Source: an uncultured Caryophanales bacterium (GTDB taxonomy: Bacteria; Bacillota_I; Bacilli_A; RF39; UBA660). From it: a stretch of DNA of 45,754 nucleotides. The notes beneath the pieces are model-generated. The model made no database searches, was not told where the DNA came from, and was given only the letters and a program-made list of their open reading frames with translations. The stretch lies in assembly GCA_946614095.1 (NCBI GenBank), contig CAMOGG010000007.1:1-45754 (forward strand), given 5' to 3'. How positions within the stretch are numbered: the first letter of the stretch is position 1; each line of letters opens with the position of its first letter. A program made the translations under genes and the position numbers. Shown piece by piece: positions 33,289 through 43,313 of this stretch.

Positions 33289-33891
33289 ATGGCAAGATAT
33301 ACTGGACCAAGTTACAAAAAAGCTCGTCGTGTAGGTTTTTCTATTAGTGAAACTGGAAAAGAATTAGCACGTCGTCCATATCGTCCTGGTCAACATGGAA
33401 ATGATCGTCGTGGAAAAGAATCTGACTATGGAACACAATTAAAAGAGAAACAAAAAGTTCGTTTTATGTATGGTGTCAATGAAAGACAATTTAAAAAGAC
33501 TTTCAATGAAGCTGCAAAAATGAAGGGTGTTCATGGTACAAATTTCTTACAATTACTAGAATCTAGATTAGATAATATAGTATATCGTATTGGATTTTCA
33601 TCAACTCGTCGTGGAGCAAGACAATTAGTAAACCATGGACATGTAACAGTTAATGGTAAGAAAGTAGACATTCCATCTTACAGAGTAAAACCAGGTGATG
33701 TTATTTCTTTAAAAGAAAAAGACAGAAACCTAAAAGTAGTTGCTGAAGCTCTACAAAAAGTTACAAAACGTGTTGAATTCATTACTTACGATGAAGGAAA
33801 AATGGAAGCTACATTCGTTAGATTACCAGAAAGAAATGAACTTAATGCTGATATTAATGAGGCATTAATCGTTGAATTCTATAACAAATAA
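33289..33891 (+). CDS. rpsD: 30S ribosomal protein S4
   Basis: S4 is a primary 16S rRNA binder that starts 30S assembly and regulates its own synthesis. The 200-residue product has the N-terminal block [33 protein letters not shown], and the S4 RNA-binding domain with [13 protein letters not shown] and [27 protein letters not shown] precedes the ATG. It is a single gene outside the large ribosomal operons, as in Bacilli. Confidence 0.98.
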
Positions 33892-33917
33892 AAAGTTCTA
33901 TCAAGAACTTTTTTTCT
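33890..33917. terminator. Bidirectional terminator between rpsD and the phosphatase
   Basis: AAAAGTTCT (33891-33899) pairs with AGAACTTTT (33904-33912) across ATCA, with T runs on both strands. The stop codon of the convergent gene is in the loop. Confidence 0.85.
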
Positions 33918-34452
33918 TTTGATATTCAAATTCTTCACATTGACAATTATCAATAAATCCATCCAATAAATTTCCTTTTAATTCAGTACCTTGTATTAAA
34001 TGACGAATCGCACGATAAGGGACACTATGTGTAACAACAATTACAGTATCATTTTCATGATGTTCTAAAATATCATTCAAAAATTCACTGCATCTCATAA
34101 AAACATCCTGTATAGGCTCAACATGAAACTTATCCCAGTTCAAATCATAATCCCAAAAACGATATGCATTATATTCTTGTTTATTCTTTCCTTCTAAATA
34201 CCCCATCTCACGATCAATTAATCTTTGATCAGAAATCATTTCTACTCGTTCTCCAATCAAAATCATCGCTGTTTCTACACATCGAACAAGAGGAGACATA
34301 TAACAAGCATCGATTTTTTTATCATTAAGTTTTGATTTTAAACGTTTACATTGTCTTCTACCACCATCATTTAATAAATCATTTTTTCTACCTTGAATAT
34401 GACATAAAAAATTTTCTTCTGTCTCACCGTGTCTTACTAAAATAATTTTCAC
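33901..34452 (-). CDS. Histidine phosphatase (phosphoglycerate mutase-like)
   Basis: A 183-residue member of the histidine phosphatase superfamily. It has the catalytic RHGETEEN motif at residues 7-14, the second conserved Arg in SPLVRCVETA, the acid in DREMGYLEGK and the second histidine in VVTHSVPYRA. Substrates in this family vary (sugar phosphates, alpha-ribazole phosphate, phosphoglycerate), and the short length argues against a glycolytic mutase. Its ATG overlaps the end of the upstream gene in an ATGA, so the two are coupled. Confidence 0.88.
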   Translation of the reverse strand: MKIILVRHGETEENFLCHIQGRKNDLLNDGGRRQCKRLKSKLNDKKIDACYMSPLVRCVETAMILIGERVEMISDQRLIDREMGYLEGKNKQEYNAYRFWDYDLNWDKFHVEPIQDVFMRCSEFLNDILEHHENDTVIVVTHSVPYRAIRHLIQGTELKGNLLDGFIDNCQCEEFEYQKKKSS

Positions 34453-35684
34453 GATTCAACCCCCAATATCTTCAAAGCATCACTATAACGAATAAATTTA
34501 CTTAAATAACTACCATCTTCATAAGAAGAATATCCAACAACCAAATACTCTCCATGAATTAAGTGTAAATCTGTAAAAAAATCATCTCTTTCATCACCAT
34601 ATGTAATAACAGATATTTTTTCCAATGATGAATTATATTTTCCAATAATACCATCATAGGTATAAGTATCAGTTCTATGTCTAGTAGACTTTTTATTCTT
34701 CTCAATCACTCCAATGATAACTAAATTATAATCTGAATCAACAATCATCTTATGAAAACGAGTAGATCCAGTATTCTTATAAATAACTTGATTTTGCTGA
34801 ATACAACTCAAATCATATTCAACAATTAAAGCATTAGTATCATCTACATTTGTATGACTAGCACCGCTAACATACAAATGATTATCTAATAATACAATTC
34901 CACTAAAACCAATATCATCAGTATACTGATACTCATTATGTGTAATAAACTCTCCATTCATAGTATATTGACAAATAATTCCTAAATTACCCTCGTCCAG
35001 ACCAACCGTATAAATAGATTCTCCGACTACAAGCAAATCATTAAATACAGCAGTCTTGTTACTCCCATAATGAACAGTCCATAACAAATTACCTTCTTTA
35101 TCATATTTTAATAAAATTGCTCCTCCCACTTTACTACCTACTCTAGTATTTTGATAAATACTCTGTCCAGTAACCAAATAACCATCAGAAACAGAAAGAA
35201 TACTAGTAAACTTAGAATTATCTAGCAATTTAAAATCTTTAGAAAAAATAATTTCTCCCGCAGAATCATATTTTACAATCAAAGCTCTTCTTACCGAATC
35301 ATCATGCTCCTTTTTTGTTTTTTCATAACTCCCCACTGCAACAATAGAATCACCATCTAATAAAACACCAAAATAAGCACTATTGTAGCCAACATTATAT
35401 ACTTTTTCAAAAGTCTTCTCTCTTTTGGAATTATATTTTGATATCTTAGCCTTCTCATAATAGTAATCATTATCATTATTACTACCCACTGTAACATAGA
35501 AGTTTTCAGCACTAGCAACTGCATTAATACCATCAAAATACAAGGACAAAGAATGATGAAATAAAACAGAGTATCCAACATAAAGAAGTTCTAAAAATAA
35601 AATAAAGATTAATACAAAAGATATTTTCTTTAACCTGATAATCATCCTCTTATTAGACATTTTATTTTTTCTTTTCATTTTCAC
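34449..35684 (-). CDS. Membrane-anchored beta-propeller-like protein
   Basis: A 411-residue protein with a basic N-terminus, one membrane helix (about residues 22-44) and an outer domain made of about seven repeats of the form I-V-K-Y-D-x2-G-x-I/L followed by a strand with G-Y-L-V-x-G (for example ALIVKYDSAGEIIFS, ILLKYDKEGNLLW, ALIVEYD). This is the pattern of beta-propeller blades in secreted surface proteins. Ligand unknown. AAGGAGGG stands directly before the ATG. It is followed without a gap by the histidine phosphatase gene. Confidence 0.75.
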   Translation of the reverse strand: MKMKRKNKMSNKRMIIRLKKISFVLIFILFLELLYVGYSVLFHHSLSLYFDGINAVASAENFYVTVGSNNDNDYYYEKAKISKYNSKREKTFEKVYNVGYNSAYFGVLLDGDSIVAVGSYEKTKKEHDDSVRRALIVKYDSAGEIIFSKDFKLLDNSKFTSILSVSDGYLVTGQSIYQNTRVGSKVGGAILLKYDKEGNLLWTVHYGSNKTAVFNDLLVVGESIYTVGLDEGNLGIICQYTMNGEFITHNEYQYTDDIGFSGIVLLDNHLYVSGASHTNVDDTNALIVEYDLSCIQQNQVIYKNTGSTRFHKMIVDSDYNLVIIGVIEKNKKSTRHRTDTYTYDGIIGKYNSSLEKISVITYGDERDDFFTDLHLIHGEYLVVGYSSYEDGSYLSKFIRYSDALKILGVES

Positions 35685-35732
35685 CCTCCTTATCTATTTT
35701 CATTGTAACAAAAGAGCAAACTTTTTTCTACC

Positions 35733-35771
35733 CAAAAAAAACAAATAAATTATAAAATAACTTATTTGTTT
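35733..35771 (-). terminator. Terminator of the coiled-coil gene
   Basis: On the minus strand AAACAAATAA pairs perfectly with TTATTTGTTT (plus-strand arms 35762-35771 and 35739-35748), followed by T. Confidence 0.8.
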
Positions 35772-35775
35772 AAAA

Positions 35776-36948
35776 CTATTTGGTTTTAACTTTAGCCTCT
35801 TCCTGCATATCAGAATAATGTACTCTTCTAACTAGCACATCATCATACTCTGAATAATAAATATTTTCCAAAAAGAAATCTATCATTTTTTTATATTTAC
35901 CTATAAATAAATTCATTTTATCAGAAGATAATTCTGAATCTTGATTTTTCCATTTTTGAATTGCATTTTGAATTTGACTAAAAAGTTGTTCAACATAAGA
36001 TAAATCTATATTTTCTCTTTCAAACACTCTAGATAAAGAACGATACCATATATCAGAATCTATAACATGAGAATTCTCTTCAGACAAAACAGCATAAGAA
36101 TAATAATAAGGTGCATATTCTTTCAAATTAGAATAATCAAAGTTTAACTTCATCAATTCATCCGTTACCATTAAATATTCTATAATTGCTAATTTTTGTT
36201 CTTCACTTAATTCTTGATACTTTTGAATAGTTTCGAATTCAACAGTAGCATCTTGAATCATTTTATTAATTTTAAAAATATTTCTTTGAACATCTTCTAA
36301 TCTTCTAAGTTTAGCATCTTTATAAAATGGAAATTTAAGACTTTTTTCTACATCAGCCTTTTCTAATAACATACCTCCTAACTGTTCTTTTAATTCTCTT
36401 ATCTTAATAGCAGACTCCCGAAGTCCTTTTTCTCTCTTTTCAATAGAATCATCACTCTTTTTTAAGTTAGAAAAAATATCACTATCATACGAATAAAACT
36501 CTGAAAGATGTAATCCATTAAAAGAATCAAATACTTCCAATACACTAGAGTCATCAACAGATAAATCAGTAATATCTCTACTATCACCTAAATGAACATT
36601 TAGTGAATGTAATTTCTCTTCCAAATCTCTTAAACGAACAAAATATTCATAAAATTTACTTTTAATATTATTAATATTTTTGTCATATTTGGCTTTTTCT
36701 CTTTGATAATCTTCTTCTAATATTTCCTCTCCACAAGAATATAACTTTTTAAAGAAATCAGACAATTCAAAAGAATCACCATCAACTATTTCCTTTATTA
36801 AATAATGAGCATCTGTATATACAGGCTTTGTAACCTTTCTATTATGTCTACCATAATAATCATAATCATCATCATAATAACTACTAGAACGACTACTAGA
36901 ATATAGCGAAGATGATGCTAAAGTATGGAATGCACTACCCATACCCAT
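35776..36948 (-). CDS. Coiled-coil protein of unknown function behind a regulatory leader
   Basis: A 390-residue soluble protein. The first 40 residues are Ser/Tyr/Asp-rich and probably disordered, with runs such as SSRSSSYYDDDYDYYG; the rest is helical with coiled-coil segments (about 75-120 and 165-250). I see no signal peptide, membrane helix or enzyme motif. GGAGGG precedes the ATG. It has its own promoter and a 150-base leader with a strong terminator, so its expression is conditional. Not recognised. Confidence 0.75.
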   Translation of the reverse strand: MGMGSAFHTLASSSLYSSSRSSSYYDDDYDYYGRHNRKVTKPVYTDAHYLIKEIVDGDSFELSDFFKKLYSCGEEILEEDYQREKAKYDKNINNIKSKFYEYFVRLRDLEEKLHSLNVHLGDSRDITDLSVDDSSVLEVFDSFNGLHLSEFYSYDSDIFSNLKKSDDSIEKREKGLRESAIKIRELKEQLGGMLLEKADVEKSLKFPFYKDAKLRRLEDVQRNIFKINKMIQDATVEFETIQKYQELSEEQKLAIIEYLMVTDELMKLNFDYSNLKEYAPYYYSYAVLSEENSHVIDSDIWYRSLSRVFERENIDLSYVEQLFSQIQNAIQKWKNQDSELSSDKMNLFIGKYKKMIDFFLENIYYSEYDDVLVRRVHYSDMQEEAKVKTK

Positions 36949-36973
36949 ATTTTTCCCTCCTTGGTTTTATATT

Positions 36974-37098
36974 ATGAAGTCTAAAAAAACAAGACTTCAT
37001 GTTTTTTCATGAAAGTCTTGCCCAAATAATTACTATTTTTATGATACAGAATAAACGTGTTGTTGTATCATAACATTTAAGGACTACTCCCTCTCAAT
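36974..37098 (-). ncRNA. Terminator/antiterminator leader, resembling the yybP-ykoY Mn2+ riboswitch
   Basis: On the minus strand the leader reads TGAGAG-GGAGTAG (37096-37084), a perfect hairpin ATGATACA/TGTATCAT (37071-37041), then GGGCAAGA-CTTTCA (37023-37010). TGAGAG can pair with CTTTCA (one G-U), giving the P1-flanked GGAGUAG...CAAGA arrangement I know from yybP-ykoY. CTTTCA is also part of the 5' arm of a strong terminator, so P1 and the terminator exclude each other, the logic of an ON switch. The middle is shorter than usual for yybP-ykoY and I cannot place its second receptor loop, so the class is not certain; the switch-like layout is. Confidence 0.5.
36983..37020 (-). terminator. 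Leader terminator before the coiled-coil gene
   Basis: CAAGACTTTCATG pairs with CATGAAGTCTTG (plus-strand arms 37008-37020 and 36990-37001; one bulged base), followed by seven T (36983-36989). Its 3' arm can instead pair with AGACTTCAT just downstream (plus 36974-36982), a possible third state. Confidence 0.85.
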
Positions 37099-37104
37099 AA
37101 CCGT

Positions 37105-37133
37105 ATTATAACATAGTTTACTAAGATTTTCAA
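37105..37133 (-). promoter_or_regulatory. Promoter of the coiled-coil gene
   Basis: On the minus strand TTGAAA (37128-37133), 17 bases, TATAAT (37105-37110). It begins directly after the tyrS stop codon, with no tyrS terminator in between. Confidence 0.8.
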
Positions 37134-38366
37134 CTATTCATATATCCCAATAAAATACTTTTTCTTTCCACGACGAATAACGATATACTTAGACTCAATA
37201 CATTCCTCTTTTGTAACAACAAAATCATTATCCGTAATTTTAGTGCCGTTTAAAGTAATAGAAGAATTGCCAATAAACTCACGAGCCTCTCTCTTACTAG
37301 AGCATACTTTTCCATAAACAAGTAAATCAACAATATTCATATCCTCATGAATAGTAAATGGAGTAAGCCCCTTAAAAGCAACCTCAACATCCTTCTTCTT
37401 AAAATTCTTAATATCCCCACTAAATAAAGACTCACTAATCTTAACAGCTTCTAAATAACTCTTCTCTCCATGTAAATCTGTAATAATCTCACGAGCCAAT
37501 GCTTTATGAGCTTCACGAAGTTCTGGATGATTTTTATTTTTCTTTTCAAGCTCGTTTATCTCATCAACACTTAAGAAAGTAAAGATTTTTAAGTATGGAA
37601 TAACCATTTCATCATCAACATTAATTAAGTATTGATATAATTCATAAGAAGATGTTTTTTCTTCATCTAACCACAAAGCATTTCCTTCACTTTTACCAAA
37701 CTTATTCCCATACTTATCCAATACAAGAGGCATCGTAAATCCATACGCAACATCACCAGTTAATTTACGAATCAAATCAATTCCTGTTGTAATATTTCCC
37801 CATTGATCAGAACCTGCTGCTTGTAATGAACAACCCTTATGCTGATGTAACCACAAATAGTCATACCCTTGTATTAAAGTATAAGAAAACTCCGCAAAAG
37901 TAATACCTGTCTCTAATCTTCTACGAATAATATCTTTATCTAACATATAATTAACATTAATATATTTTCCTACATCCCTCAAGAAATCTGTAAAGGAGAA
38001 TTCCTTCATCCAATCGTTATTATTGACAATTTCAACATCTCCTCCAACAATTTCTTTAACTTGTTTACTTAAACACTTTAAATTATGTTCTACAGCTTCT
38101 TTAGAAATAATTTCTCTCTCAGCCGTAGGTCTAGGATCTCCAATTAAACCAGTAGCACCTCCAACTAATAATATTGGATGATGACCAGCTTTTGCTAATC
38201 TCTTAGCAGTAACCAAACTAGAGTAATGACCTAAATGCAAACTATCTGCAGTAGGATCTGTTCCCCAATAAAAAGTAAGTTTTTCATTGTTTAATTTATC
38301 CTCTAAATCATCTCCTGCTATATCTTTAACCAAACCTCTCCATTGTAATTCTTCAAAAAATGTCAT
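37134..38366 (-). CDS. tyrS: Tyrosyl-tRNA synthetase
   Basis: TyrRS charges tRNA-Tyr. The 410-residue product has the class I motif HLGH (residues 44-47), the tyrosine-site segment with SDQWGNITTG, the KFGKSEGN form of KMSKS, and a C-terminal S4-like RNA-binding domain (from about residue 340). Its ATG overlaps the stop of the CYTH gene in an ATGA, so they are translated together. The upstream T-box has a TAC specifier, in agreement with tyrosine. Confidence 0.97.
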   Translation of the reverse strand: MTFFEELQWRGLVKDIAGDDLEDKLNNEKLTFYWGTDPTADSLHLGHYSSLVTAKRLAKAGHHPILLVGGATGLIGDPRPTAEREIISKEAVEHNLKCLSKQVKEIVGGDVEIVNNNDWMKEFSFTDFLRDVGKYINVNYMLDKDIIRRRLETGITFAEFSYTLIQGYDYLWLHQHKGCSLQAAGSDQWGNITTGIDLIRKLTGDVAYGFTMPLVLDKYGNKFGKSEGNALWLDEEKTSSYELYQYLINVDDEMVIPYLKIFTFLSVDEINELEKKNKNHPELREAHKALAREIITDLHGEKSYLEAVKISESLFSGDIKNFKKKDVEVAFKGLTPFTIHEDMNIVDLLVYGKVCSSKREAREFIGNSSITLNGTKITDNDFVVTKEECIESKYIVIRRGKKKYFIGIYE

Positions 38367-38908: not shown

Positions 38909-39125
38909 AACTTCCTCCAAAGAAAAACGAATCAAACGTCTAAGGACGAATGATTCGCGGTACCACCTTAATTCATGTATAAACATGCACTTAAATGCTT
39001 TAACGGGGCATTCCGATTTTTCTCCAAACCTGTAATTCATAAAAATAACTTCTTTTAACTTCCACCTAACGTTAAATCTCTATCAACCATTATTTTTACT
39101 ACTAATGTTCTTCATCAAAAAATAT
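38909..39125 (-). ncRNA. T-box leader, tyrosine-specific
   Basis: T-box riboswitches sense uncharged tRNA and prevent termination. On the minus strand the leader has the T-box core AAGGTGGTACCGCG (plus 38956-38969), with TGGT for pairing to the ACCA end of tRNA, and a specifier-like GAATTACAGG in which TAC (plus 39032-39034) is a tyrosine codon. It ends in a terminator at 38922-38957. It controls the CYTH gene and tyrS. Confidence 0.93.
38922..38957 (-). terminator. T-box terminator
   Basis: On the minus strand CGAATCATTCGTC pairs with GACGTTTGATTCG (two mismatches in the middle), followed by TTTTTC. The 5' arm follows the T-box sequence directly, as in other T-box switches. Confidence 0.85.
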
Positions 39126-39164: not shown

Positions 39165-42100
39165 CTAGCTACAATGTGAATTAGAAGTTGCTGTAACATC
39201 ATAATCATTAGTAGGATTATTATTTTTACAAACATAGCCTGCAGTTCTAGTATAAGTTCCTGAATTATGCTTACTGACTCCTCCATCAGTATCAGCTCTA
39301 TTTTTTTTAATCGTTCCACCGCTTAACTTAAAGGATCCAGTACCAACTCGAATTCCTCCTCCATTGGCTCCTGCAGTGTTACTTGCAATCGTTCCTCCAC
39401 TCATTACAGTTGTGCCATTAGAACCAATTCCACCACCATTACCAGTAGAAGCAGTATTATTACTAATCGTCCCTCCACTAACTGTTATTTTGGAATTAGA
39501 GATACCATATATCCCGCCTCCTGCAGGCGCCGTATTATGATCCACAGTCCCATTTTGTAAAGTTATCTCTCCATATGCCCCAGCATACAATCCGCCACCT
39601 CTATAATCACCCGAACCAGTATCAACAGCAGTATTATATGAAATTTTAGCATTAGTTCCATTAATAGTTAGAGTTCCCTTTCTTGTTCCATCCGATGTTC
39701 CTTCAGTTGAAATTCCACCACCATTTTGAGCAGTATTATACGAAAAGGTTCCACCTGTTACATTAGTTGTACCCCAGTTTTTCAAAACACCTCCATGCTG
39801 TCTAGCAGTATTAGAATTTGCACTACTTCCTCCAAAAGTTCCAGCCGAGATAGTACATGTTCCATAATTATGAATAACACCTCCCGATCCCGATTCTCCA
39901 CTAGTTCCACCTGCTTTGTTTTTAGTATATGTTCCTCCACTAATATTTAAAGTTGATCCATCTACGGTAAATACAACACCACCATGAAGAGAAGTATTGC
40001 CAGAATAAGTTCCTCCTTTTAAACTGGAGGTCCCTCCCGCAACATACAAAAAGCCTCCATTTCCAGCTTGTGCTCCAGTTGTATTACTATTAAACGTTCC
40101 AGAATTTATAGTTAAAGTTTTTGTTGAATAAATAGCTCCTCCATTAGAACTAGATGAATTATTACTAATAGTCGTATTTGATATTGTTGTCTCTCCCGTA
40201 TTATAAATAGCTCCAGCTGCTGAATCTGTACATTGATTATATGTAATAGAACCACCAGTAAGAATTAATTTACCAGCCGATCCAACAGTAAATGCACCAC
40301 CAGCAGACTTTGAAGTATTTTTATTCGCAGCACTTCCCCCAAAAGTTCCAGCAGAAACATTACAAGTACCATAACAATAAGCTACACCACCAGAACCTGT
40401 TGTCGCACTATTTTTAGTATAAGTTCCTCCATTAATCGTTAAAGTTGCATTTGTATTTACACTTATTGCACCACCATGAGGTGCAGAATTACTAGAGAAA
40501 GTTCCTGTCTTAATAGTCATAACATTATTATTACGAAGTGCTCCACCTTGCGTAGTAGCAGTATTATTCGTAAACGTTCCATTTTCTATTGTTATCTCTG
40601 CCCTATTATTAAAAATTGCTCCACCATAGGTACCTTTATTTCCTGTAAAAGAACCATTAACAACTCTGATACTACCTGTTTCATTAAACACAGCACCTCC
40701 ATATGATGTAGCACTATTAGAATTAAAAGTTCCAGAGGTAATGGTAGTAGTATCATTATTAAAAATTCCACCTCCACTACCAGCCTGATTAGAAGTAAAT
40801 ATTCCACCATTAATTACTAATTCGTTATTATTTATTATTGCACCTCCATTTGAGGAATTCTTACTGTTTTTTAATGTAGCACTACTACCTATTGTTAAAG
40901 AATCATCATTTAATATCATTGCTTGTGTAGAAGTAATATTATTACCATCCAATGTAATTGTATTTAACCCTAATTTTCCATTTTTATTTTTAATAATAGA
41001 ATTAGTTAGTGCACTTCCTCGAATAATAGAATTGGCAGTACTCGTTGGACAAGACGTATCGCTTTCTTTCGTACAACTAGTTAGTGTGATATTTTTATTA
41101 TCATCAAAGCTAGTTGTTTCATTATAGGTTATATTATCCATCACATAAATCGTTGAGGTATCTTCTGCCATATTGTAGGCTTTTGTAAGAGTTACATAAG
41201 GACTTGCAATACTACCAACTCCAGTAGAATCATTTCCATCTGACTTTACATATAATTTATTAAATTTAACTTGATGAGAATTTGTAAGAGTAATATTATT
41301 ATAACTATCATCAATAGATGTAGTTAAATATCCAGCACTAGTAAAAGGAACTACAACAGAAGTACTTGTAACATTTACACTACTTCCATTATCTTTCTTG
41401 TATGAACAAGTTAATCCATTACTGCAACCATTAGGAAAAGTAATGGTAACATTTCTTGTTCCATTTTCAATAGCAGAATCTTGAAATCTCGTATTAGAAA
41501 TAAAATTACTTACTACATAAGGATCTTCCATAGTCCCAGTACCACTAGAATACTTTGTTCCTGGTACTAGAGAAATTGCTGGGCGAATGCCATCAGCTTT
41601 GTCCATGTGGCTATAAGAGTCGATCCCCATATGACCACCTGTATATACTTTTCTACCAACAGCAATGTTATCAGAAAAAAAGGCAGGTGAAGCGAGCCAA
41701 TAACGTTTTCCCGTCTTTCGTGCATTATCATTATTTAAAATGTTCATCTCTGGACTTGACATCAATCCTATTTTATAAGTTAATTTTGCTTTATTGTTCG
41801 ATATACTAAATTGATCAGTTATATTCGTACAACTTAAATCATTTGTAATGCTATATTCTTTAAAAGACATAAAAGCAAAAATACTACCTCCGTTTGGATT
41901 CCATGCATTTGTATCTGCATTATTTTGACTTCTATCATTACAGAATATGGTATCTTCTAACTTTTCAGAATAATTTAATAAATACTTCTTATACCAAGAA
42001 TCTACTCCTGTTTTTATGGTAGAGTTAATAGCATTCACATCATCATTATATAACATTTCATTCACTGCATCAGCAATACTTTTTCCATCTGTTAAATCAA

Positions 42101-43313
42101 CATAAAATACCCAAACATTTGATAAATCATATATATAAGAAACACTAGTACACTCACCTGTATCATTCCAACAAGTATAATGAGCATTATTAATACTTTC
42201 TTGATTTGCATTGTCAACAATATTCCAAAAATTAACAGATGTATTATCATCAAGTACATATTTATTTCCATCCCAAGTGTAACTTTTTGCATATTTATAA
42301 TCATCTGATACCTTAACATAAAGCATATTTGTAGCATAAGTATCAGTTACATACCATAAATCATTACAGGTGTCATTTACAGCATTCCTACATACATATT
42401 TATTTTTTACATTACTATAAGAAGTATTCAAGTCGTTACTATTTATTGTTGTTGGACTATTTATGGTATAAGTCCCATTTTCATTATGACGATAGCTATC
42501 CCCATATGTATAGGTATAATTTAAATTATTATAAAACTCAGAATTAGTAATATCCCTTACTTGAATTGGATATACAGTATTATACATATATCCTACATAA
42601 GATGGAGAATTATATTGTTGATTAAACTGTAATGTTCCAAATTGAGAATAATGGGAATTACCATTGAGTGGTAGTACATTATAGGTTGTTCCACTATTTA
42701 ATGTATCTACTAGATATAGAGTTGTACAAGTTCCATCTACCGTTGTAGATTTACAGGTATATTCTCCTACTTTTATCTCTCCTGTTGATGTAGTTCCTGA
42801 TAAGCTAAATACATTATTTGCTTTATCATAAGTATAATCTGTTCCATAATAGTATGTTGTAGATAGACTTTGAGTAGTTCTTTCTGCATACCCTACATGA
42901 TTCCCTCTGGTATTCAAACACTTTCCATCTTCTACTTCACCATTATAGATCATCTTCACTCCACCAGTATCTGTTGTTCTAATCATTTGCCAACAGTGAC
43001 CTGCAAAGATAACATTATTCTTATCTAATATTGCTGTTCCATTTGTATCATTACTTCCATACCAATGATATATTTTCTTGGAACCTACTCCTGCCATAGA
43101 GTCTTGATGAGCACCGGTATATTCTATAGCAAGACCACTCCCACTTTGAGCTTCTCTTCTTAAAACATCATATAATCTTCTACTATTATATAAGTAAGAG
43201 ACATCTCCACTCACCATTAAATCTTTTTGTAAAGCTGAATATCCTATTGATATGACAGAAAGAATTCCTGCTATAACAAATAAAAAAATTGTATTTAGTT
43301 TTTTTCTTGTCAT
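39165..43313 (-). CDS. Giant surface protein with GG-rich beta-helix repeats
   Basis: A 1382-residue exported protein. It has a signal-anchor region (residues 1-27), an opening IGYSALQKDLMVSG segment, a globular part to about residue 590 with the end motif RYWLASPAFF...GIRPAISLVPG that recalls DUF6273-like domains, a beta-sandwich with two Cys, and YVKSDGNDSTG leading into a parallel beta-helix. The helix has about 20 repeats with GGAI/GGGI and NNTA-like turns, as in chlamydial polymorphic outer membrane proteins. No outer-membrane barrel and no LPxTG. It ends in GYVCKNNNPTNDYDVTATSN and a final Cys-Ser. GGAGAAAG precedes the ATG. Anchoring is unknown. Confidence 0.9.
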   Translation of the reverse strand: MTRKKLNTIFLFVIAGILSVISIGYSALQKDLMVSGDVSYLYNSRRLYDVLRREAQSGSGLAIEYTGAHQDSMAGVGSKKIYHWYGSNDTNGTAILDKNNVIFAGHCWQMIRTTDTGGVKMIYNGEVEDGKCLNTRGNHVGYAERTTQSLSTTYYYGTDYTYDKANNVFSLSGTTSTGEIKVGEYTCKSTTVDGTCTTLYLVDTLNSGTTYNVLPLNGNSHYSQFGTLQFNQQYNSPSYVGYMYNTVYPIQVRDITNSEFYNNLNYTYTYGDSYRHNENGTYTINSPTTINSNDLNTSYSNVKNKYVCRNAVNDTCNDLWYVTDTYATNMLYVKVSDDYKYAKSYTWDGNKYVLDDNTSVNFWNIVDNANQESINNAHYTCWNDTGECTSVSYIYDLSNVWVFYVDLTDGKSIADAVNEMLYNDDVNAINSTIKTGVDSWYKKYLLNYSEKLEDTIFCNDRSQNNADTNAWNPNGGSIFAFMSFKEYSITNDLSCTNITDQFSISNNKAKLTYKIGLMSSPEMNILNNDNARKTGKRYWLASPAFFSDNIAVGRKVYTGGHMGIDSYSHMDKADGIRPAISLVPGTKYSSGTGTMEDPYVVSNFISNTRFQDSAIENGTRNVTITFPNGCSNGLTCSYKKDNGSSVNVTSTSVVVPFTSAGYLTTSIDDSYNNITLTNSHQVKFNKLYVKSDGNDSTGVGSIASPYVTLTKAYNMAEDTSTIYVMDNITYNETTSFDDNKNITLTSCTKESDTSCPTSTANSIIRGSALTNSIIKNKNGKLGLNTITLDGNNITSTQAMILNDDSLTIGSSATLKNSKNSSNGGAIINNNELVINGGIFTSNQAGSGGGIFNNDTTTITSGTFNSNSATSYGGAVFNETGSIRVVNGSFTGNKGTYGGAIFNNRAEITIENGTFTNNTATTQGGALRNNNVMTIKTGTFSSNSAPHGGAISVNTNATLTINGGTYTKNSATTGSGGVAYCYGTCNVSAGTFGGSAANKNTSKSAGGAFTVGSAGKLILTGGSITYNQCTDSAAGAIYNTGETTISNTTISNNSSSSNGGAIYSTKTLTINSGTFNSNTTGAQAGNGGFLYVAGGTSSLKGGTYSGNTSLHGGVVFTVDGSTLNISGGTYTKNKAGGTSGESGSGGVIHNYGTCTISAGTFGGSSANSNTARQHGGVLKNWGTTNVTGGTFSYNTAQNGGGISTEGTSDGTRKGTLTINGTNAKISYNTAVDTGSGDYRGGGLYAGAYGEITLQNGTVDHNTAPAGGGIYGISNSKITVSGGTISNNTASTGNGGGIGSNGTTVMSGGTIASNTAGANGGGIRVGTGSFKLSGGTIKKNRADTDGGVSKHNSGTYTRTAGYVCKNNNPTNDYDVTATSNSHCS
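39800..40440 (-). repeat. Internal duplication in the surface protein
   Basis: The segments at about 39800-39945 and 40310-40440 encode near-copies: GGTYTKN, a spacer, GGV, a GTC step (YGTCNVSAGTFGGSAAN versus YGTCTISAGTFGGSSAN) and then N-T. They are about 510 bases apart, so a block of about five repeat units was duplicated. Confidence 0.65.

Follow-up and report, generated by a model that had tools for sequence, protein, structure and literature searches.

Riboswitches of the yybP-ykoY class (Rfam family RF00080) are recognized by the sequence GGAGUAG/CAAGA of loop L1, located beside helix P1. The class is abundant and occurs upstream of genes for putative cation transporters, as described in a review (PMC7266159). 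Loop L3 has the sequence UCA41AU43UC (UCAAUUC) in L. lactis and ACA48U49ACU52 (ACAUACU) in X. oryzae; its invariable adenosine binds Mn2+ via N7, and a conserved adenosine is extruded from L1 (PMC6754395). In the L. lactis switch, P1.1 is directed into the antiterminator with Mn2+ and into the terminator without it (PMC11087558). The mgtA leader of S. pneumoniae, the gene of a Mn2+/Ca2+ ATPase, has been described as a three-way form, so the three-way junction itself is already known.

The stretch of DNA analysed here (the window; 45,754 nucleotides from an uncultured Caryophanales bacterium) carries a leader that is quite likely a compact ON switch of the yybP-ykoY type, with one junction arm lost, most likely responsive to Mn2+, and positioned before an orphan gene. 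The target of the S. pneumoniae mgtA leader, by comparison, is an exporter.

Architecture of the leader

The locus extends over positions 37133-36974 of the minus strand; its promoter is followed by a structured leader and by a terminator that reuses the 3' strand of P1 in its 5' arm. The order of elements on the minus strand is promoter, TGAGAG, GGAGTAG, 10-bp hairpin stem, GGGCAAGA, CTTTCA, terminator, complementary arm, Shine-Dalgarno sequence, and ATG. A preliminary description had named the promoter, the TGAGAG/CTTTCA stem, GGAGTAG, and GGGCAAGA, each of which lies on the minus strand where it had been placed. The terminator sharing CTTTCA with P1, also proposed there, is confirmed and appears as a hairpin in the predicted fold, and the proposed third hairpin on the terminator 3' arm is real, with nine perfect pairs between ATGAAGTCT and AGACTTCAT. 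The features of the locus are as follows:

37105-37133, minus strand: promoter TTGAAA-N17-TATAAT with TG before the -10 box (TTGAAA at 37133-37128, TATAAT at 37110-37105)
37091-37096, minus strand: P1 5' strand TGAGAG, pairing with 37015-37010 and supported by covariation
37084-37090, minus strand: 5' side of L1, GGAGTAG, the last G of which also starts P2
37081-37084, minus strand: P2 5' strand GTCC, pairing with GGGC at 37023-37020; C-G changes to U-A with pairing kept
37080-37074, minus strand: 5' linker of 7 nt without an arm
37064-37073, minus strand: P3 5' strand TTATGATACA, pairing with 37048-37039; two-sided change in nine of ten pairs among relatives
37057-37063, minus strand: L3 bulge ACAACAC, with the putative Mn2+-discriminating adenosine at 37061, by comparison with L3 of L. 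lactis and X. oryzae
37049-37056, minus strand: remnant of the P4 hairpin, GTTTATTC, recognized from sequence; the closing G-C alone can pair in the window copy
37024-37038, minus strand: 3' junction arm PB, with six possible pairs and 0.0 kcal/mol alone, present in columns 79-81/95-97 of the RNAalifold consensus
37023-37016, minus strand: GGGCAAGA, read in the sequence
37016-37020, minus strand: 3' side of L1, CAAGA; AAGA or GAGA in relatives
37010-37015, minus strand: P1 3' strand CTTTCA, common to the terminator 5' arm
36983-37020, minus strand: intrinsic terminator formed of CAAGACTTTCATG (37020-37008) and CATGAAGTCTTG (37001-36990) with seven T, -12.9 kcal/mol alone
36974-36982, minus strand: third arm AGACTTCAT, complementary to ATGAAGTCT (37000-36992) of the terminator 3' arm
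35776-36948, minus strand: regulated gene of a 390-aa protein of unknown function (ATG at 36948, Shine-Dalgarno sequence AGGAGGG at 36961-36955)
35734-35771, minus strand: AT-rich terminator-like repeat after the gene, by our own reading; absent from the list of the terminator scanner

The promoter is positioned 8 nt upstream of P1, matches the consensus at 11 of 12 positions, and has an extended -10 box. Among the 25 promoter-like sites in 33400-37400 it ranks first; shuffled sequences contain 26.5 such sites on average, so the mere presence of a site carries little weight. A -10 box with at least five of six matches is present within about 30 nt before P1 in 108 of 113 unique relatives, which is a raw count.

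Folding of 37100-36985 gave an energy that was equalled by one of 200 shuffled sequences (z = -3.66). When the whole leader is folded, the terminator form has the lowest energy. In Vienna, whose model does not extend to the metal-docked form, the aptamer alone is about 0.4 kcal/mol more stable with GGGAGU/ACUUUC paired than with P1. At the place of the P4 hairpin, relatives have, for example, GGTTATCC; a P4 helix was rejected for the window copy, as only one pair is available. The terminator of the window is absent from the list of the terminator scanner, in our opinion because of its one-base bulge.

The 390-aa protein has no Pfam match over the cut-off, only weak sub-threshold ones, no NCBIfam match at E <= 0.01, and no match in the 38 other genomes of the genus. 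A similarity to the target of another leader, L028 (E = 6e-4, a single pair, 27% over 140 aa), was discounted because both proteins look coiled-coil. The AT-rich repeat behind the gene indicates that the leader probably controls this one gene.

Distribution of related leaders

A pattern search of 39 genomes of the genus, including that of the window, found one other copy (in G053), which is 92% identical and precedes an unrelated gene. The covariance model R1, made of these two copies, found at least 16 places in at least 12 of 386 genomes of the family, the genome of the window included; one of them is a second copy in that genome. All 17 leaders known at that stage were read as lying between a -10-like box and an open reading frame, with a terminator in between. 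A second covariance model, R2, was built from 16 of them, with L024 omitted because it was badly aligned by R1. R2 found at least 57 places in at least 53 of 395 genomes of the class, again including that of the window, and 6 of the 53 genomes belong to the window's family. When applied to the 15 family genomes known to hold the leader, R2 found at least 30 places, among them at least three in the genome of the window and at least six in G022.

A pattern scan of genome contigs provided at least 115 stretches, and R2 matches 112 of the 115 listed at E <= 0.1 (78 of 80 and 34 of 35), missing L100, L134, and L158. Since L1 and part of P1 are prescribed by the pattern, the matches are not independent of it, and those with the lowest scores (23-30 bits) carry little weight by themselves. 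The titles of the listed pattern loci are mostly those of metagenome-assembled genomes of Bacilli, Bacillales, Erysipelotrichaceae, Tenericutes, and Clostridia, together with Ruminococcus bromii, and many of the loci come from animal gut. A match on a viral contig (L011), which has only the pattern in common, was rejected as chance.

Conserved helices and junction

In the alignment of 16 leaders (15 distinct rows, fitted to the covariance model), pairing is found in 99.7% of the 299 cells of P1, P2, and P3, and two-sided changes that preserve it occur in 14 of 20 pairs. The covariation score of this alignment is 0.613, compared with 0.213 in shuffles and 0.03-0.16 for slid structures, and sliding of the 3' partners cuts the pairing to 28-46%. 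RNAalifold recovered P1, P2, P3, and PB, with two-sided changes in 11 of 20 pairs, from a MAFFT alignment that was fitted to no structure. The covariation of TGAGAG with CTTTCA, on which the preliminary description had staked its proposal, was found: the first pair of P1 is U-A, C-G, or A-U among the relatives, and the second is G-C, A-U, or G-U.

The junction was compared in 117 leaders with a cleanly parsed P3, with the remaining 21 of 138 leaders set aside. Arms of at least four possible pairs are confined to the 3' linker in 54 leaders and to the 5' linker in 34; 20 leaders can form them in both linkers and 9 in neither. The corresponding numbers for shuffled linkers are 24.7, 6.5, 1.9, and 83.9. 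A three-way junction, with its arm on one side or the other, is thus typical of most leaders, and a four-way junction is still possible in some. The window copy is of the 3'-arm kind, and its six possible PB pairs are weak. The 20 relatives that can form both junction arms link the compact form to the four-way form.

Core loops L1 and L3

The L1 sequence GGAGTA is present in all 44 leaders found by covariance model and all 78 found by pattern; it is fixed by the pattern in the latter and favoured by the model in the former. The 3' side of L1 is AAGA or GAGA in all 122 parsed leaders, in 78 of which AAGA is fixed by the pattern.

L3 is a bulge of 6-7 nt with the sequence WCANNNC, located after the P3 5' strand and before a small hairpin that adjoins the P3 3' strand. 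Its third base is A in 110 of the 117 leaders with a cleanly parsed P3, its second base is C in 111, and its seventh base is C in 86, with some bulges one base shorter. WCA is also present in all 21 set-aside leaders, as determined with a loose regular expression. The discriminator A of L3 is replaced by U in six of the 117 leaders (L062, L065, L123, L137, L155, and L168) and by G in one (L150), which makes these leaders candidates for altered metal specificity. L062, L065, L137, and L155 are all positioned upstream of the same lipoprotein cluster, which has seven unique leaders.

Terminators and the third arm

In 103 of 113 unique leaders, the P1 3' strand contributes 4 nt or more to a hairpin that is followed by a U tract, compared with 7 of 113 random positions, taken from the same loci with one position per leader. 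This test covers alignments A3, A5, and A6, from which three rows near contig ends and six duplicates were dropped. It supersedes a fixed 62-nt fold, in which later hairpins competed and the terminator was found in 81 of 113 leaders. The ten leaders without a P1-overlapping terminator include two leaders of OAD beta genes, which encode beta subunits of Na+-pumping decarboxylases (L029, 1501-1588, and L040, 1501-1596). By our own reading, the P1 3' strand of L040 seems complementary to the Shine-Dalgarno region, which suggests translational control.

The folds of shuffled sequences, the recurrence of the leader with covariation, and the P1-overlapping terminators of its relatives confirm that the leader with its structure is a real observation and more than chance.

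The third-arm duplex at the window reaches -11.5, compared with a mean of -5.3 for shuffled sequences. Third-arm pairing at p <= 0.01 occurs in 53 of 139 tested leaders (1.4 expected), or in 50 of 139 when more shuffles are used, the shuffles preserving single-base composition only. It is present in 49 of 105 non-exporter leaders compared with 1 of 34 exporter leaders (Fisher p = 8e-7). Lineage is a confounder of this contrast, as the exporter leaders belong mostly to other families.

Comparison with the RF00080 model

The preliminary description had proposed a match to RF00080 or another riboswitch model as a test, and on this point its expectation failed: no Rfam riboswitch model reports the leader. 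A cmscan of the leader against Rfam gave only sub-threshold matches to snoRNA, plastid, sRNA, and plasmid antisense models (E <= 10), which were taken as chance. The cmscan of the window against Rfam 15 reported RNase P and a T-box only, and RF00080 has no match at E <= 10 in the genome of the window.

The gathering score of RF00080 (45 bits) was reached in none of 62 genomes. In 40 genomes, comprising that of the window and relatives, one match with RF00080 reached E <= 0.001 but not the cut-off; in control genomes RF00080 exceeded the cut-off in 2 of 14, which indicates that the model itself works. A scan of 20 loci with RF00080 gave one match (L053, 33.3 bits). A scan of 18 loci gave none, although L007, which scores 22.5 bits elsewhere, was included, so the scan can miss weak true matches. 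L007 has GGAGUAA in L1 and UCAAUUC in L3.

R2 and RF00080 coincide at five places (in G713, G649, G560, G491, and G615), with RF00080 E-values of 5e-8 to 0.1. R2 matches seven of ten fetched RF00080 places, the five best among them; it misses L175, which has 27.5 bits with RF00080, and L178 and L179 are short, weak matches. The RF00080 places at G485:C88 and C89, G460:C4, and G719:C20 were absent from the class search by R2. With laxer filters, R2 recovers two of the three fetched from this group and misses that in G719.

The window leader resembles the yybP-ykoY switches of L. lactis and X. oryzae in that the P1 switch helix shares a strand with the terminator, making the two exclusive, in the L1 sequence GGAGUAG/CAAGA (37090-37084 and 37020-37016), and in an L3 of the WCANNNC type, with the discriminator A, between P3 and the hairpin on its 3' strand. 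Like members of the class, relatives of the leader occur upstream of P-type ATPases, Na/Ca exchangers, and MntP. In contrast to the class, the leader is about 90 nt long compared with the 177 positions of the model and lacks a match to it. The four-way junction is absent from the window, where the 5' linker is without an arm and the 3' arm PB is weak. The leader also differs in its third arm 3' of the terminator and in its orphan protein target, for which Pfam gave no cation transport function; genes of this function follow 34 of 143 unique leaders with an open reading frame. Because it reaches neither the Rfam threshold nor the four-way junction, the leader is filed as a yybP-ykoY variant and not as a plain member.

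Genes downstream of the leaders

None of the 16 leaders used to build R2 has a cation exporter as its first gene. The best 25 of the 48 R2 places outside the family precede 15 P-type ATPases, four Na/Ca exchangers, four SPFH proteins, and two OAD beta proteins; these are raw counts, with gene calls based on Pfam for one representative each. The ATPase representative fits best to a PMR1-type Ca model, under its cut-off. Within the window's own family, one leader (in G300) precedes a Na/Ca exchanger. That a model trained on non-exporter leaders retrieves exporter leaders points, together with the L3 adenosine, to homology with the latter. P-type ATPases of this superfamily in the genome of the window have at best 36% identity, and none of the three R2 leaders of this genome is on a contig bearing a P-type ATPase.

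The 181 leader rows reduce to 148 unique ones, five of which are without an open reading frame; the first open reading frame was chosen by an automatic rule, and some unique rows may represent one species present in two collections. Among the remaining 143 leaders, 34 precede exporters (23 ATPases, 10 exchangers, and one MntP), and 109 have no known exporter type downstream. The other targets are 16 SPFH proteins, two NfeD proteins, three OAD beta proteins, 12 deoxyribosyltransferase-like proteins, 13 members of a lipoprotein family, four other clusters of 18, 7, 3, and 3, and 32 others including the window gene.

SPFH/Band 7 proteins are a recurrent target in several families (L030, L042, L045, L050, L114, L125, L130, and others). 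One of them has a weak HflK match, and the NfeD targets were identified by Pfam. Behind L014, L021, L024, L025, L109, L193, and others lie members of a family of small proteins, either lipoproteins or membrane proteins, in which the motif 'F-PGEH ... P-GY' is repeated. This family has 23 HMM matches behind 17 of 132 leaders, sometimes in tandem and with some loci duplicated, and one representative is without a Pfam match. In searches of open-licence papers we found neither a link of yybP-ykoY with SPFH nor a compact subtype with such targets.

Proposed mechanism and alternative explanations

The leader very probably works like a yybP-ykoY riboswitch and descends from one, and its aptamer is almost certainly of this type. 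The preliminary description had suggested a yybP-ykoY-like leader on a new target, a suggestion that gains support from the discriminator A of L3 and the exporter leaders retrieved. Mn2+ is the likely ligand of the window copy. By analogy with the partitioning of P1.1 in L. lactis, it is highly likely that the leader is an ON switch that acts by antitermination. At high concentrations of the metal, most likely Mn2+, L1 and L3 would dock and stabilize P1; CTTTCA would then be withheld from the terminator, and the polymerase would read into the gene. At low metal, CAAGACTTTCATG would pair with CATGAAGTCTTG and transcription would stop. The third arm emerges past the termination point, so its role would be to lock the read-through form or to shape the 5' end of the mRNA; in the former case, the freed terminator 3' arm would pair with the third arm after read-through and lock the ON form.

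The window gene has no known tie to Mn2+, and the same is true for most targets in relatives, which speaks against the yybP-ykoY reading. The 109 of 143 leaders that do not precede a known exporter type, as well as the loss of the discriminator A in some relatives, could be explained by descent from yybP-ykoY with a changed ligand, in which the same scaffold and switch would respond to another divalent metal or to a state such as alkaline pH. According to a review, other divalent ions are probably the ligands of some yybP variants, and this would account for target genes that seem out of place under Mn2+ control (PMC7266159). However, the window copy retains the A, the ACA of its L3 is also found in the Mn2+-binding aptamer of X. 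oryzae (PMC6754395), and one leader of the same family precedes a Na/Ca exchanger; we therefore consider a changed ligand quite unlikely for this leader.

It is very improbable that the leader is bound by a protein or another RNA and functions as a protein-dependent antiterminator without a metal. The presence of the same leader before many unlinked targets resembles a protein-controlled regulon, but conservation falls on the bases of the metal-binding loops, and exporter leaders are retrieved with the same model. The absence of an Rfam match would also fit an ordinary 5' untranslated region with a terminator and a few suggestive bases. Such a coincidence is next to negligible when set against the covariation, which in our view already refutes it, the recurrence in at least 53 of 395 class genomes, and the association with exporters.

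A wider scenario can be considered, which we regard as speculative and unlikely. A large group of Bacilli with small genomes, mostly from the gut, may have slimmed the Mn switch and copied it before unrelated genes of envelope or unknown proteins, with a three-arm platform of its own, and some copies may have swapped the discriminator base and read another signal.

The subtype, which the standard model does not report, precedes a far wider set of genes, including those of SPFH and NfeD proteins, the lipoprotein family, deoxyribosyltransferase-like proteins, and unknowns. It gives a first point of entry into the control of numerous uncharacterised genes of uncultured bacteria. The set of sequences, natural changes of the discriminator included, provides material for studies of the suspicion, published in the review, that some yybP RNAs respond to ions other than Mn2+ (PMC7266159).

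Other elements near the leader

A T-box leader (38939-39124, minus strand, 108 bits) is located upstream of a CYTH-domain gene, which is followed by a gene that we take, from its sequence, to be tyrosyl-tRNA synthetase-like. The region 39165-43313 of the minus strand encodes a 1382-aa repeat-rich protein, which is probably a surface protein.
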